Both the position numbers and the translations under genes were made by a program. A DNA stretch of 64,000 bases, taken from positions 9,096,001 through 9,160,000 of the forward strand of contig NZ_CP069396.1 in assembly GCF_016887565.1 (NCBI RefSeq). The letters are read 5' to 3'. The notes beneath the pieces are model-generated. The model searched no databases and was not told where the DNA came from. It saw only the letters and a list, made by a program, of their open reading frames with translations. This document shows positions 4,009 to 9,932 of the stretch, in pieces. Position 1 is the first letter of the stretch. Every line of letters begins with the position of its first letter. Source of the stretch: Archangium violaceum. GTDB lineage: Bacteria > Myxococcota > Myxococcia > Myxococcales > Myxococcaceae.

Positions 4009-4428
4009 ATGCGAATCAGCGAGCTGATGACGAAGGACCTGGAGACGATCGAAGCGGATGCACCGTTGCGCCTGGCGGCCGAGCGGATGCGCTCGTTCGG
4101 CATCGGTGCGCTGCCCGTCATGGACGGAGATCAGCTCGTGGGGATGCTGACGGACCGGGACATCACCGTGCGCGCGACGGCGGCGGGCAAGGACCCGAAC
4201 CGCACGCCCGTGCGCGAGGCGATGACCCATACCGTCATCACCTGCGACGCGGACGCTCCCCTCTCCGAGGCCGAGCACCTGATGGAGGAGAAGGCGGTGA
4301 GACGCCTGGTGGTGCTCGACACGTACAAGAAGCCGGTGGGCCTCATCAGCCTGGATGACCTGGCCACGGTGCCGGGCGAGGCGAAGCACACGGGCGAGGT
4401 GCTCCGGGAGCTCAACACCCCGCAGTAG
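4009..4428 (+). CDS. Tandem CBS-domain protein
   Basis: This 139-residue cytoplasmic protein is composed of two CBS motifs. The first spans about residues 7-60 (ISELMTKDLETIEADAPLRLAAERM ... GMLTDRDITVRA). The second spans about 72-125 (VREAMTHTVITCDADAPLSEAEHLM ... GLISLDDLA). CBS pairs bind adenine nucleotides and usually act as energy or redox sensors. The ATG at 4009 was chosen because a GAGGAGAGGT ribosome site sits just upstream. The gene end overlaps the end of the convergent Cys-cluster gene by 17 bases. The regulated target is unknown. Confidence 0.9.
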   Translation: MRISELMTKDLETIEADAPLRLAAERMRSFGIGALPVMDGDQLVGMLTDRDITVRATAAGKDPNRTPVREAMTHTVITCDADAPLSEAEHLMEEKAVRRLVVLDTYKKPVGLISLDDLATVPGEAKHTGEVLRELNTPQ

Positions 4429-4951
4429 GGTGGGCCTCGAACCACTCGAAGAGAGAGAGGGTGCCGCCACTGAGCCGCGCCAGGGTCTCCTCCAGGGAGT
4501 CCTGGTTGCCCCAGAGGATGTCTCCGTCCCCGTGCTGGTCGAGCAGCCCGCGGATGAGGTGGCACCAGTTGCCCGTGCCCCGGCTCAGGTAGAAGCCATA
4601 CGTGCGGCAGAGCAGGGGCCGGTGCGCGTACACCCGGCAACCCCCGGACTCGCGGTCGAGGAACGGGCAGGTGTAGGGACGCTCCGTGCCGGACAGCTCG
4701 GCCACACGGGCGCGGATCTCCGCCTGGGCTTCCGGTGACAGGGCCTGGAAGCCCTCCCAGAGGTACGTCCACTCCCACCGGGTGACGGTCAGCGGCGCCG
4801 CCAGGTGGCGGCAACAGTGATCGCAGCCCTTGCGGCAGGGCCACCAGGCATGGCTCCCCGTGGTGGACGAGACCCGCTCGTCGATGCGCCGGTAGAGGGC
4901 TTCCAGTGTCTCCCGTTGGTCACCTGTGAGTGGCTCCATGGTGGAAGGCAT
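4412..4951 (-). CDS. YkgJ-like zinc/iron-chelating Cys-cluster protein
   Basis: This protein of about 179 residues has the YkgJ-type pattern of spaced cysteines: CRKGCDHCC near residue 40, a Cys in YTCPFLD, a Cys in GGCRVYAHRPLLCRTYG, and a final Cys at the C-terminus. The family is thought to bind Fe-S or zinc, and the function is mostly undefined. The start is uncertain between ATGs at 4951 and 4939, neither with a strong ribosome site. It converges on the CBS gene. Confidence 0.75.
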   Translation of the reverse strand: MPSTMEPLTGDQRETLEALYRRIDERVSSTTGSHAWWPCRKGCDHCCRHLAAPLTVTRWEWTYLWEGFQALSPEAQAEIRARVAELSGTERPYTCPFLDRESGGCRVYAHRPLLCRTYGFYLSRGTGNWCHLIRGLLDQHGDGDILWGNQDSLEETLARLSGGTLSLFEWFEAHPTAGC

Positions 4952-5009
4952 TCTGCGGCCTGGTACTCGGAACGGGGTAGCGGTTCGAGCCCTGATAGAG
5001 TCCCGCCCC

Positions 5010-5888
5010 ATGTCCGAGGTCCTCCTCCGTACCCATGGGCTCACCCGTTCGTTCGACCAATTCAAGGCCGTGGATGGGGTGGACCTCGAGCTGCGGCGCG
5101 GCGAGGTCTACGGCTTCCTCGGCCGCAACGGCGCGGGGAAGACGACCACGCTGCGCATGTTGATGGGCATCCTCCGCCCGGACCGGGGGGAGATCGAGCT
5201 GATGGGCCAGCGCGTCCGCCGGGTGCGCGCGGCCCAGAAGCAGCGGCTCGGCTACGTGTCGCAGGAGCAGGTCTTCTATCCCTGGATGACGGCGCTGGAG
5301 CTCGGGCGGTTCGTCTCCGGCTTCTACCCGGACTGGGATGACGCGGCGTTCCGGCGGCTCCTCCGGGTGCTGGACGTACCCGAGGATCGCAAGGCCGCGC
5401 AGCTCTCCGGAGGAACGCGGATGAAGCTGGGGCTGGCGCTCGCCCTGGCGCACCGCCCGCCGCTGTTGATCCTCGACGAGCCCACCGCCGGGTTGGATCC
5501 GGTGGCGCGGCGCGAGTTCCTCGACATCCTCCGCGAGCAGGTCCGGCGCGAGGGACAGACCGCGCTCTTCTCGTCCCACCTCGTCGGCGAGCTGGAGGAG
5601 GTGGCGCACCGCATCGGTATCCTCCACGAGGGCCGGCTGCGCTATCAGGGGAGCCTCGACACGCTGCGCCAGTCGGTCCGGAGGGTGGTGCTGGAAGCGC
5701 CACCGGAGCAGCTCCCTCCGGGCCTCTCACTCGTGAGACGCGAGCTCCTGCCGGAAGGACGCGAGGCCCGGGTGCTCTTCGGCGAACCGGAGGCCTGGAC
5801 GGCCAGTGCCTTCGCCCCCGAGGCGGTGGAGTCCCTCTCGCTCGAGCACATCTTCCTCGCCTACGCGCGGCGGTCGGACGAGTCATGA
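5010..5888 (+). CDS. ABC transporter ATP-binding protein (ABC-2 exporter)
   Basis: This 292-residue ATPase has Walker A GRNGAGKT (38-45), signature LSGGT (132-136) and Walker B LLILDEP (152-158), followed by a switch His region (SSHLVGELEEVAHRIG). It is typical of ABC-2 type exporters of the NatA/YhaQ kind. It energises the two permeases that follow. Its TGA overlaps the ATG of the first permease (ATGA), indicating one operon with coupled translation. Confidence 0.93.
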   Translation: MSEVLLRTHGLTRSFDQFKAVDGVDLELRRGEVYGFLGRNGAGKTTTLRMLMGILRPDRGEIELMGQRVRRVRAAQKQRLGYVSQEQVFYPWMTALELGRFVSGFYPDWDDAAFRRLLRVLDVPEDRKAAQLSGGTRMKLGLALALAHRPPLLILDEPTAGLDPVARREFLDILREQVRREGQTALFSSHLVGELEEVAHRIGILHEGRLRYQGSLDTLRQSVRRVVLEAPPEQLPPGLSLVRRELLPEGREARVLFGEPEAWTASAFAPEAVESLSLEHIFLAYARRSDES

Positions 5889-7741
5889 CCTGGGCCCTCC
5901 TGCGCAAGGAGTGGCGCGAGCATCGGGGCTCGTGGCTCCTCCTCAACCTCTTCTTCGGGGCCCTGCTGGTCCTCTTCCTGGTGGGAGAGGCGCGCTACTC
6001 GAGGAGGGGCAGCCTGTTCGAGCTGCTCCGGATGTCCTCCATCCTCCTGGCCACCGTGGGAGCCCTCTTCGTGGCCCACCGTCTGGTGGTGCGCGAGTAC
6101 GGCCAGCGGACCCAGCTCTTCCTCGAGTCACTTCCGCTCTCGCGCACGCGGATCCTCGCCACCAAGCTGGTGCTCGGGGCGGCGGTGCTGCTGCTCCCGC
6201 TCGCATTGAACCTGCTCGTCCTCGGGAGCCGAGCGCGAGCGTACGAGGACGTCTCCCTCCGCTTCCTGCTCGTCCTGGTGATGCGGGCGGGGACCCCGGT
6301 GCTGCTGGGCTGGGTCTTCTTCGCGCTCGCCGGGCTGCTCGGCCGCTACCGCACGCCCCTCTTCATCTTCCTGACCATCGCCCTGTTCGCGGTGGACCAC
6401 CTCACCGAGTTCAATTTCTCCCAGGCGGGGCCCTTCGCGCTGCTCGGCGCGGACTTCGCCTTCGAGCGCCACCGCATCCCCTGGAACCATCTCGGTCCGT
6501 GCTGGGCCCTCACGGTGGTGATGGTGGCCCTCTGCTTCGCGCTGGTCCTCTACGAGGATGGGACGCTGGCCGAGCTGCTCTCCCAGCGGATGAGCCACCG
6601 GGAGAAGGTGTTCATCGCGTGTGTCTTCGTCGGGCTCTTCGCGGTCATCTCGATGATGGATGAGGAGAAGCAACGCAAGCCCTTCGCCCTGCACACGGCG
6701 GAGCAGGCCAGCGTGAAGGGCTCGGCCCTCCAGGTGGCGCCCGGGGTGGGGTTCTCGCGAGAGCAGGCGCGGAAGATGGCGGAGCGGCTCGCGGGAGACC
6801 TGTCCGCGCTGAGTGACTACCTCGGGCTCGAACAGCTTCCGGCCGTGGCGGTGATGCCCATCCGCGAGCTGGATGCCGACGTGTTCCAGCGCGCGAAGCT
6901 CGAGAAGGCCGATGGGGTGGTCGTCCGGGCCAACCTCGCGGACCCGGGCTTCGACCTGCGCGCCTTCGAGTCCTTCCTCTTCCGCGAGGTGCTCATCCGG
7001 GCCAGCGAGGGCACCGTGCTGCGAGAGGAGCGCCAGTGGTTGCTCGATGGCTTCACCACCTGGTGGGCGAACCGGGACGAGGAGGATCCACGGCTGTCGC
7101 CGAGGGCCGCGGTGGCCTCGCGAGAGGACTTCGACGCCCGGAGCTGGTTGAGCACACGGGAGCGCCTCGGGCCCTGTCTGGCGGGGGCGTTGGCCACCCG
7201 GGGCGTGCTGACGCTGCGTGGACAGTTGGGTGAGCCCGCCTTCCGGACGCTGATGCAACGCACCCTGGCTCGAGCGCCGGGAACGGGCCTCTGGGGGCTC
7301 TGGCAGGAGCCACGTCTGGACGCGCTGCTGCATGAGCTGGGCAAGACCTCCGAGGAGGAGTTGTCGAAGCGCTGGCGCGAGGCACTCCAGCGGGACCGGG
7401 AGGCGCGGGCGGACCTGGTGCGGAACCTGTCCCGGCTGCAGCCGTCCCTCACGCTGGTGAGGGAGTCGGAGGAGACCTTCCGGCTGGAGCACACGCTCTC
7501 GGAGGAGGGCCGGACGGAGCCCACCGGGAAATACGCGCTCCTCTACAGCGAGCTCGAGCCATTCGAGAACGAGGTGGCCCACCATGAGCTCTCCCGGCAG
7601 GACGCGGTGGGCTCCAGCCAGGCCGCGGTGCTACCGCACGGTCTGGTGAAGGGCGAGCGGTGGCTCTTCGTGCTTCAGGTGGAGTCCGAGCCGCTCGGGT
7701 GCCCCATCCGCCTGCTGGCGGAACGGAAGGAGATCCGATGA
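5885..7741 (+). CDS. ABC-2 permease fused to a degenerate peptidase-like domain
   Basis: This 618-residue protein has about seven hydrophobic segments (near 17-35, 52-69, 90-114, 125-152, 157-176, 203-225 and 241-258) and then a soluble domain of about 350 residues. An odd number of helices would place the soluble part in the periplasm if the N-terminus is inside (inference). That domain aligns by position with the gluzincin domain of the next gene, but its motif reads R367-E368-V-L-I371 where HExxH is expected, and WLLDG (385-389) where the third-ligand motif EGLAxY would lie. It is probably catalytically dead. It overlaps its neighbours by ATGA at both ends. Confidence 0.85.
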   Translation: MTWALLRKEWREHRGSWLLLNLFFGALLVLFLVGEARYSRRGSLFELLRMSSILLATVGALFVAHRLVVREYGQRTQLFLESLPLSRTRILATKLVLGAAVLLLPLALNLLVLGSRARAYEDVSLRFLLVLVMRAGTPVLLGWVFFALAGLLGRYRTPLFIFLTIALFAVDHLTEFNFSQAGPFALLGADFAFERHRIPWNHLGPCWALTVVMVALCFALVLYEDGTLAELLSQRMSHREKVFIACVFVGLFAVISMMDEEKQRKPFALHTAEQASVKGSALQVAPGVGFSREQARKMAERLAGDLSALSDYLGLEQLPAVAVMPIRELDADVFQRAKLEKADGVVVRANLADPGFDLRAFESFLFREVLIRASEGTVLREERQWLLDGFTTWWANRDEEDPRLSPRAAVASREDFDARSWLSTRERLGPCLAGALATRGVLTLRGQLGEPAFRTLMQRTLARAPGTGLWGLWQEPRLDALLHELGKTSEEELSKRWREALQRDREARADLVRNLSRLQPSLTLVRESEETFRLEHTLSEEGRTEPTGKYALLYSELEPFENEVAHHELSRQDAVGSSQAAVLPHGLVKGERWLFVLQVESEPLGCPIRLLAERKEIR

Positions 7742-9621
7742 TCCGCCCGCTCGTGTCCAAGGAGCTGCGCGATCAGCGGCCGTTCCTCTGGCTCGCCCTG
7801 TTCTTCCTGGCGCTCGACGTGCTCTCGACCCTGTGGACCGAGGCACTGGGGCTCTCGCCCTACGAGGCGACCTTCGACGTCCAGTTCAAGCTGGATGGCA
7901 ACCTGTCCATGCTGACGTTCATCCTCGCCTTCGCGCTGGGCAGTGGCCTGCTCGTGCGCGAGCAGGATGACCGGACGCTGGAGTTCCTGGATGCACTGCC
8001 CACTTCGCGGTGGAGCCTCTTCTGGGTGAAGCTGCTCGTCGCGCTCGCCACCGTGCTGGTGTACCCGCTCGGGACGAGCCTGTGGATGATCGGCCAGCAC
8101 GCGCTCTCCGCCACCTCGCTCGACCCGGGTCTGCACCTGGATGTGATGGCCGTGGGCACGGTGCTGCGGGTGGTACAGGCGCTCACGGTGCTCGCGCTCG
8201 CACTGGCCCTGGCACCGCTGCGGCGGCTCTGCTGGACGGCGCTGGCGGTGCTGATGTTGAGCCAGTCGCTCCTCGAGGAGCGGATGCCCTGGCTGTCCGC
8301 CCTCAACCCGTTGCGCCTCACGGAGCCACGATTCGAGGGTCTGTATTGGCGCTGGCCCGTGAAGGCGCTGGGCCTCCAGCTCTCCGTGGCCTGCGTGCTG
8401 CTCGCCCTGGCGCTGGCGCAGTTCCTCGGCATGGGGGAGCGGCTCGTCGCCTCCATCCTGCGGCGGCTCCAGGGCTCGTGGATGGGGACGCTGGCCACCG
8501 TGGCCACCATCGGATTGTTCCTCGCGACCTTCGCCTTCTGGGCCAGGGACGACGACCCGGAGGAAAGGAGCGGCGGAGAGAAACCCCGGGTACGGTTCCC
8601 CACCACCGCCACCGCGCAGGCGGCGACCCGGCACTACCAGTTCACCTACCCCGCCAGTCAGAGGAAGCGCACCGAGCCGCTCGTGGGCGGGGCGGATGGT
8701 GTCTTCGATCAGGTGCGCACCTTCCTGGGCGTGGAGGAGGGGGTGCCCATCCGAGCGGATCTCGGCGGGAGCACACGACACACCGCGGGCACCGCGTACT
8801 GGAACACGCTGAGGATGAACCTCACCGGGCTCTCGAGCCCCGAGGAGGCGCTCGCCGTGCTCGGACACGAGACGACGCATGTGCTCGCCCAGCGCATCAC
8901 CGGACCCGAGGCCGCCCCGCGTCTGTCGAGCATGAATCTGCTCAGCGAGGGATTGGCCGCCTATGTGGAGTACCGGCTCTTCCGAGCGCCTGGAGCGGAG
9001 GAGGAGTACCAGCTGATCGCCGCGGCGGCCCGAGCCCGGCGCGAGGTGAAGACCGAGGAGTTGCTCGAGCCGGAGAAGCTCGCGGCCGAGCGGGACGAGA
9101 ACCAAGTGTACCCGTTGGGGAGGGCCTTCATCGAAGTGCTCGTGCGGAGGCATGGAGACGGAGCGCCAGCGCGAGTCCTCGCGGCGCTCGGGAGGAAGGA
9201 CGCGCCCGAGAATCTCGACGGCACGCTGGCGTGGCAGGACGCCTTCCAGACGGCGGGCATCGACCTGTCCCAGGTGTTCGACGACTTCTTCGCCTACCTG
9301 GACGAGCAGGCGGAGCGACGACGCCAGGTCATCAACTCACTCCCGCGCCCGCGAGGGGCACTGGAGCGGGACGAAGAGGGACAGGTGGGCATCCGGGCCA
9401 TCGTGGACGGGACGCTCCCCGAGGGCTGGGAGGTGGTCTGCCGTTTCCGCCCGGAGGAGAAGGCCAACCACCACGCGTTCGATGGGCCCTACTCTGGAGT
9501 CGGCCCTCACTGGCGGGATGCCTCGGACATCTCGGGAGGTCAGCTCTGGTACCAGTTCGGGCTCAAGGGCCCGCGAGGGCTGGTGCTCTATGAGCCCTGG
9601 ACGATGGTGCGGGTGGAATAG
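7738..9621 (+). CDS. ABC-2 permease fused to a zinc metallopeptidase domain (HExxH)
   Basis: This 627-residue protein has about seven hydrophobic segments in the first 265 residues, then a soluble domain. The domain contains H377-E-T-T-H381 and, 23 residues on, E404 in LLSEGLAAYVEY, the pattern of M1/Peptidase_MA-like gluzincins. The ligands look complete, so it may be an active zinc protease. It is the partner of the preceding permease, which has the same layout with these residues lost. The ATG at 7738 overlaps the previous stop. The substrate is unknown; processing or sensing of exported peptides is a guess. Confidence 0.85.
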   Translation: MIRPLVSKELRDQRPFLWLALFFLALDVLSTLWTEALGLSPYEATFDVQFKLDGNLSMLTFILAFALGSGLLVREQDDRTLEFLDALPTSRWSLFWVKLLVALATVLVYPLGTSLWMIGQHALSATSLDPGLHLDVMAVGTVLRVVQALTVLALALALAPLRRLCWTALAVLMLSQSLLEERMPWLSALNPLRLTEPRFEGLYWRWPVKALGLQLSVACVLLALALAQFLGMGERLVASILRRLQGSWMGTLATVATIGLFLATFAFWARDDDPEERSGGEKPRVRFPTTATAQAATRHYQFTYPASQRKRTEPLVGGADGVFDQVRTFLGVEEGVPIRADLGGSTRHTAGTAYWNTLRMNLTGLSSPEEALAVLGHETTHVLAQRITGPEAAPRLSSMNLLSEGLAAYVEYRLFRAPGAEEEYQLIAAAARARREVKTEELLEPEKLAAERDENQVYPLGRAFIEVLVRRHGDGAPARVLAALGRKDAPENLDGTLAWQDAFQTAGIDLSQVFDDFFAYLDEQAERRRQVINSLPRPRGALERDEEGQVGIRAIVDGTLPEGWEVVCRFRPEEKANHHAFDGPYSGVGPHWRDASDISGGQLWYQFGLKGPRGLVLYEPWTMVRVE

Positions 9622-9845: not shown

Positions 9846-9932
9846 AGCATGCGAAACCCGACCATGTCCACGAACTCCGTGGATGCTCCATCACACGAGG
9901 TCCCCCCACCAGCCATGCAACCCCGGTGAACC

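Follow-up and report, generated by a model that had tools for sequence, protein, structure and literature searches.

The analysed window, a stretch of 64,000 nucleotides from the 13.2 Mb genome of Archangium violaceum, contains an operon of three genes whose stop and start codons overlap at both junctions: an ABC ATPase (P0001) and two permeases (P0002 and P0003), each of which continues into a soluble C-terminal domain. The sequence-only reading had located the ATPase and the two permeases at positions 5010-9621, limits that we recovered, and had described about seven helices followed by a soluble domain in both permeases, an arrangement that is seen in both predicted models with around 355 soluble residues each (Table 1). 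The soluble domain of P0003 has a complete zinc-peptidase site and that of P0002 has lost it; hereafter we call them the live and the dead domain. On the minus strand, a divergent frame at 4415-5065 encodes a CxxCxxCC putative metal-chelating protein (PF03692) and overlaps the region where the operon begins; in three other genomes of the Archangium group, a relative is found next to the operon.

Table 1. Genes and protein parts of the three-gene operon, in positions of the window.
Feature	Position	Strand	Description
ABC ATPase P0001	5010..5888	+	292 aa; PF00005 E 6.5e-31
First permease P0002	5885..7741	+	618 aa; seven helices, then C-terminal pseudo-peptidase (predicted)
ABC-2 transmembrane half of P0002, residues 1-262	5885..6670	+	NosY-like in the model; Pfam sub-threshold
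Dead gluzincin-fold domain of P0002 (model), residues 263-618	6671..7738	+	ends in beta strands; C431, C606
Second permease P0003	7738..9621	+	627 aa; seven helices, then C-terminal gluzincin with full site
ABC-2 transmembrane half of P0003, residues 1-270	7738..8547	+	PF12679 E 3.8e-07; NosY-like model
Gluzincin domain of P0003, about residues 291-545	8608..9372	+	H377, E378, H381, E404, Y458
C-terminal beta-rich part of P0003, about residues 546-627	9373..9618	+	model secondary structure

The comparison rests on a merged set of 21 operons, of which 19 lie in Myxococcota genomes and 2 in Verrucomicrobiia MAGs. They were collected from relatives, by scanning the genomes of named species for patterns and by searching 195 Myxococcota genomes with a profile. 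The pattern scan, whose two peptide patterns missed diverged members, gave 11 loci, all within genomes already in the set. All the expected ATPase motifs were present in P0001 (GRNGAGKT, LSGGTRMK, LLILDEP and SSHLV). An ATPase gene adjoined the permeases in 19 of the 21 operons; Walker A and Walker B were found in all 19 ATPases, while the signature and H-loop patterns were found in 18 and 16, respectively. The two operons without an adjoining ATPase comprised one that lies at a contig end and one in a MAG (G158), where a Ser/Thr protein kinase gene (L090:6891-8546) occupies the place expected for the ABC ATPase.

The membrane half of P0003 was above the cut-off for both PF12679 and PF12730, and that of P0002 fell under the ABC-2 Pfam cut-off (16.2 of 27.2 bits); at E up to 1, PF12679 and PF12730 were detected in 10 and 11 of 12 aligned P0002 members, respectively. 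In NCBIfam, P0003 gave a GldF match under threshold and nothing better, and P0002 gave no match. When the models were compared by VIA-align, which was restricted to Foldseek's own candidates and where a Z of 12-15 is close to the chance level that helical models can reach, the membrane halves of P0002 and P0003 aligned with NosY (7znq_y) at Z 13.5 (rmsd 4.3, 221 aligned) and Z 18.5 (rmsd 3.8, 219 aligned), respectively. NosY was the top structural match of the P0003 half and tied among the best for P0002, and the P0003 half was also near ABCG exporters (Z up to 16.9). A first-permease profile searched against solved structures gave 8 matches that were mostly apolipoprotein or chance, with NosY among them (E 0.27).

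Seven helices per permease fit both the hydropathy and the predicted models. The Lys+Arg value was higher for loops placed inside than for those placed outside, both in P0003 (9.7 vs 4.2) and in P0002 (8.8 vs 4.1), although the loop between helices 2 and 3 is acidic in P0003 and neutral in P0002. Because the N-terminus would lie inside and is followed by seven helices, the soluble domains are predicted to lie outside. An extracytoplasmic position of both C-terminal domains is thus supported by helix number, loop charge, the NosY-like fold of the models and a cysteine pair described below.

For P0003, the earlier reading had named H377-E-x-x-H381 and E404 as the kept site, and it proved correct to the residue (H377-E378-T-T-H381 and E404). 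The four site residues were complete at the aligned places of the second permease in 21/21 operons, and a tyrosine stood at the place of Y458 in all 20 readable copies, about 77 residues past HExxH, a spacing by which it would correspond to the M1 catalytic tyrosine. By chance alone, a domain of like size and composition would contain an HExxH with a probability of about 0.014, and the recurrence of HExxH with a third Glu at the same aligned place in 21/21 homologues is not chance. The domain therefore has the site that defines gluzincins (HExxH with a downstream Glu). GxMEN, the exopeptidase motif of M1 enzymes, was found in 0/21 live copies, and its absence argues against a classical M1 aminopeptidase. 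Likewise, Pfam Peptidase_M1 (PF01433) had no match in P0003 at E up to 10 or in any of 12 aligned live members at E up to 1. Those 12 members matched instead, a few at a time, SprT-like (3 members, best E 0.002), Peptidase_MA_2 (2, E 0.011), Peptidase_M48 (2, E 0.045) and Peptidase_M9 (1, E 0.0061). Since several peptidase families appear, each in few members, we dropped a one-family label for the live domain; the Peptidase_M48 label for P0003 itself was also rejected as sub-threshold (14.0 of 20.3 bits).

The structural comparison of the live domain points to the same broad clan. A live-domain profile searched against solved structures gave only weak aminopeptidase matches, at the zinc site (29 sequences, best E 0.012). 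The P0003 model, made from 12 sequences (mean pLDDT 75.3, pTM 0.55), gave 15 Foldseek matches at E 0.001 or better, led by M1 enzymes and an M60 domain (M1 match, E 1.6e-04). VIA-align returned M30 and M1 matches for the soluble domain at Z 13-14.8, that is, within the range given above as close to chance, and among them was 7bb8_A (Z 14.8, rmsd 4.2, 226 aligned).

In P0002, R367, I371 and D388 occupy the matching zinc-ligand places, as the sequence-only reading had noted; it had not mentioned that the window's dead copy still has the catalytic Glu (E368). The full H-E-H-E set was present in the first permease of 0/21 operons. The second His was missing in all 21, the first His and the catalytic Glu were kept in 8 and 9, respectively, and the third ligand place held Asp in 19, the row of one diverged genome (G074) resting on its membrane part and gene place. 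The first position varied by lineage (R, Q, H, S or G). Given the first His in 8/21 and the Asp in 19/21 copies, the dead domain may bind metal weakly. The full-length profile comparison placed no tyrosine of the dead copies at the position aligned with Y458. A HEELH string in one dead copy (G005, residue 498) was discounted as a site because it lies far from it.

Other parts of the dead domain were well kept. Among the 21 copies, E381 and W385 were conserved in 20, W394 in 19 and G389 in all, and a C-terminal domain of 329-370 residues was present in every first permease. In 20 of the 21 operons this domain has exactly two cysteines: C431 and C606 in 17, whereas in three C606 is accompanied by a cysteine aligned with residues 361-363, some 70 residues N-terminal to 431. 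The remaining copy has none. This joint shift of the pair suggests a disulfide between C431 and C606 and hence, as disulfides arise mainly outside the cytoplasm, a periplasmic site for the dead domain.

At the Pfam cut-offs the dead domain, like the live one, was not recognised as a peptidase. The P0002 model was also made from 12 sequences (mean pLDDT 79.1, pTM 0.61). Its dead domain had zero Foldseek matches at E 0.001 or better; the first five entries were helicases, the tricorn factor F3 (M1) was sixth (E 7.5e-03) and a TFIID chain stood at rank 25. By VIA-align, and with the same reservation on Z values, the region of about residues 264-600 matched chiefly M1 enzymes, along with two TFIID chains, at Z 11.5-13.5 among the matches listed (8sw0, Z 13.5, rmsd 3.7, 215 aligned; 7edx_B, Z 13.4, rmsd 3.7, 222 aligned; 6hqa_A, Z 12.2). 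Based on these models, we read the first domain as a pseudopeptidase with an M1/M30 gluzincin fold and lost zinc ligands, and we predict it to be inactive.

The two soluble domains resemble each other more in their models than in their profiles. In the models, strands and helices follow nearly the same order, R367 and H377 both fall at position ten of equivalent helices, and the long helix that follows contains D388 in one domain and E404 in the other. When the soluble parts alone were compared as profiles, the probability was 1.4% (E 0.037), with the EGLA and DGFT stretches aligned; the full-length comparison of the permeases (99%, E 5.7e-18) was driven by the membrane part. According to these middling-confidence models, both soluble domains have the M1/M30 gluzincin fold (clan MA).

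The pairing of one live and one dead domain was found in all 21 operons, always with the dead copy first and the live copy second. Neither an operon with both sites intact (0/21) nor a second permease with a lost site (0/21) was seen. Most of the operons had been found from the live side, so that both-dead pairs could be hidden, and we therefore searched the same 195 genomes with a dead-domain profile. It gave 18 matches, one copy each and all with a known live partner; the nineteenth Myxococcota operon (G074) has a first permease too diverged for this profile. The dead domain thus occurred only within these operons in the genomes searched, whereas the live domain has many permease-free relatives: its profile matched 93 of the 195 genomes, many matches being without a permease part. 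The ABC-2-fused form was present in at least 19 of the 195 genomes, a minimum for which 16 live-profile regions beyond the fused loci were inspected; 13 of these hold proteins with two or fewer predicted helices and three hold proteins with seven. A draw of 387 genomes from the phylum to which one Verrucomicrobiia MAG belongs yielded the fused form in that MAG alone, and two weak matches were short proteins; the cases in the two MAGs possibly arose through misbinning or transfer. The operon may also be spread beyond the Myxococcota and Verrucomicrobiia phyla. Of the earlier proposal of an unusual active/pseudo-enzyme pair, the pairing itself survived the comparison with random or both-active pairs, but its isolation did not, an ABC-2/M1 fusion being already in print.

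Since this split is kept across distant relatives, the dead half probably serves a function in its own right. Mirror-tree correlations were 0.96-0.99 (20 of the 21 operons, the incomplete G030 being left out), values that common descent predicts and that are thus no proof of contact. In four same-genus pairs, NG86 dN/dS was 0.27-0.43 for the dead domain, 0.17-0.25 for the live domain and 0.25-0.71 for the membrane halves, values that are likely inflated in these high-GC genomes, come from pairs that share genomes and serve to compare the parts with each other. The live domain had the lowest value in 4/4 pairs; the dead domain was below its own membrane half in 4/4 and above the membrane half of the other permease in 2/4. 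From its kept residues, dN/dS and cysteines, we conclude that the dead domain is under selection.

We compared the surroundings of the operon at 18 of the 21 loci and found that only the three operon genes recur across groups. Some flanking genes are common within Archangium and a genome of another genus (G123), and others within other groups; no regulator, sensor kinase, resistance or substrate gene recurred beside the operon across groups in these 18 loci. In another genome of the same genus (G003:C1:11968500-11976500, locus L128), matching of the flanks to the window ends at 4940 and resumes at 9932, and the 2.8 kb stretch in between has no match to the operon. The operon is missing between conserved flanks there, and the module is therefore accessory.

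The closest published arrangement is Q1D520 of Myxococcus xanthus (TC 3.A.1.145.1), according to a 2013 survey of transport proteins a 1200-residue ABC-2 exporter fused to a C-terminal M1 peptidase (PMC3924187). In both systems a C-terminal zinc peptidase domain of M1 type comes after an ABC-2 membrane part, but Q1D520, as described there, combines 13 helices and just one peptidase in one chain (PMC3924187), whereas here one live and one dead domain are borne by two permeases. P0002 and P0003 lie outside the definition of TC 3.A.1.145, as they are two chains and have no PF01433 match. The Archangium genome also encodes a protein that fits the TC 3.A.1.145.1 description (P0004, G000:C1:11602839-11606543; L095:1840-5544, minus strand): a 1235-residue ABC-2/M1 fusion (PF01433 E 6.3e-10) with two ABC-2 parts, then one peptidase domain with the site HEVAH. 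Profile comparison of the permeases with P0004 aligned no more than 66 columns, all within the membrane part (probability 37%, E 0.00035).

Likenesses to other systems are partial. NosDFY consists of the ATPase NosF, the permease NosY and the periplasmic NosD, and the operon resembles it in the alignment of both membrane halves with NosY and in its one ATPase gene; however, the match to NosY spans residues 1-234 only (six helices), whereas both permeases here, which are unlike each other, have a seventh helix that connects to a fused enzyme domain. M1 aminopeptidases and M30 enzymes (lugdulysin) share with the live domain the fold, HExxH with Glu and the downstream Tyr, but the live domain is without GxMEN and fused to a transporter. 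The TFIID chains among the best matches of the dead domain, which we take to be TAF2, a protein with a non-catalytic M1-like domain, belong to a eukaryotic transcription factor without a transporter. Finally, active/inactive M16 pairs such as the mitochondrial processing peptidase also combine a catalytic and a non-catalytic subunit, but in another protease family and with no ABC transporter. Our searches of open-licence papers brought up none on a live/dead peptidase pair on a transporter. The single-chain ABC-2/M1 fusion is thus already known; new here is the predicted heterodimeric live/dead pair, without GxMEN and with gluzincins of a more distant type.

In our view the operon most likely encodes an exporter or an envelope-processing machine powered by ATP, with the dead domain placing substrate for its live partner. 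Two different seven-helix permeases, driven by two copies of one ATPase, would form a heterodimeric transporter of NosY/ABCG type, and the C-terminal M1-like gluzincin domains, which we assume to be placed side by side, would stand in the periplasm. In the second permease, the domain would be an active zinc peptidase of a kind that lacks the motif of M1 aminopeptidases; the pseudopeptidase of the first would capture a polypeptide, place it for the live domain and keep the asymmetric dimer together. As ATP moves the permeases, the domain pair would open and close over the channel exit, so that a peptide, a lipopeptide or a membrane-anchored protein could be cut during export or extraction. Sequence and models support the anatomy well, in gene order, fold, site integrity and conserved asymmetry, and the chemistry, the substrate and the coupling are inferred from it. 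As a complete explanation, a heterodimeric ABC-2 transporter with a live/dead gluzincin pair acting as a periplasmic device is held tentatively, at a little under an even balance. The stricter version, an ATP-driven periplasmic protease with an obligate pair in which the dead domain is the substrate receptor and the ABC cycle feeds or gates substrate to the live one, we regard as rather doubtful. If it were true, three genes would make a small self-contained system in which point mutations could test directly both how ATP hydrolysis is coupled to proteolysis in the periplasm and what a pseudoenzyme retained next to its live sister does. Asymmetry is familiar in the ATPase domains of ABC transporters; here it sits in fused enzyme domains that would lie outside the membrane.

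Other readings give the same genes another task. ATP hydrolysis could move the periplasmic domains without any export and thereby start and stop the cleavage of envelope or lipid-anchored proteins, much as mechanotransmission by ATP hydrolysis has been proposed for NosDFY. We hold this to be somewhat unlikely: the rank of NosY among the matches of both membrane halves speaks for it, as does the absence of a recurrent substrate gene from the 18 loci compared, but the P0003 half is also near the ABCG exporters. The complex could also protect predatory soil bacteria by capturing and cutting antimicrobial or hostile peptides at their membrane. This is unlikely, because the patchy accessory spread (at least 19 of 195 Myxococcota genomes, with absence between conserved flanks in G003) that would suit it is compatible with many functions, and across groups the operon has no recurrent neighbour among regulators, sensor kinases or resistance genes.

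The remaining two readings question the domains themselves. Neither might be a protease, both serving as peptide-binding lids in which HExxH holds a structural zinc only; the lack of GxMEN in all live copies and of any peptidase family at cut-off in the window copy of P0003 would fit. We find this improbable, however: second permeases never vary at Tyr458 or at any of the four site positions, whereas first permeases have lost the site, and in 4/4 pairs the live domain has the lowest dN/dS. Lastly, the dead site might mark a decaying duplicate without function, in line with site residues that differ by lineage and with the strongly diverged copy of G074. Against such decay, the gene order is fixed, the other residues are kept in 19-21 of 21 copies, dN/dS is below 1, the C-terminal domain is retained throughout and no first permease ending after the helices was seen, which makes this account very improbable. 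The heterodimeric transporter with one live and one positioning domain is thus the reading that we prefer.

Relatives of the live domain also occur in other architectures. The three seven-helix proteins among the further live-profile regions (L113:1915-4269, L109:2295-4634 and L119:1135-3477, all on minus strands) have 780-785 residues, with seven predicted helices and then a HELAH site. TPR repeats and no ABC-2 match were found in the two that were scanned (L113 and L109), and the three represent another membrane-anchored peptidase architecture. Finally, a genome that also has the operon (G071) encodes a live-domain relative of 574 residues that has a single hydrophobic stretch at its N-terminus and the site HETAH (L093:5378-7099, minus strand).
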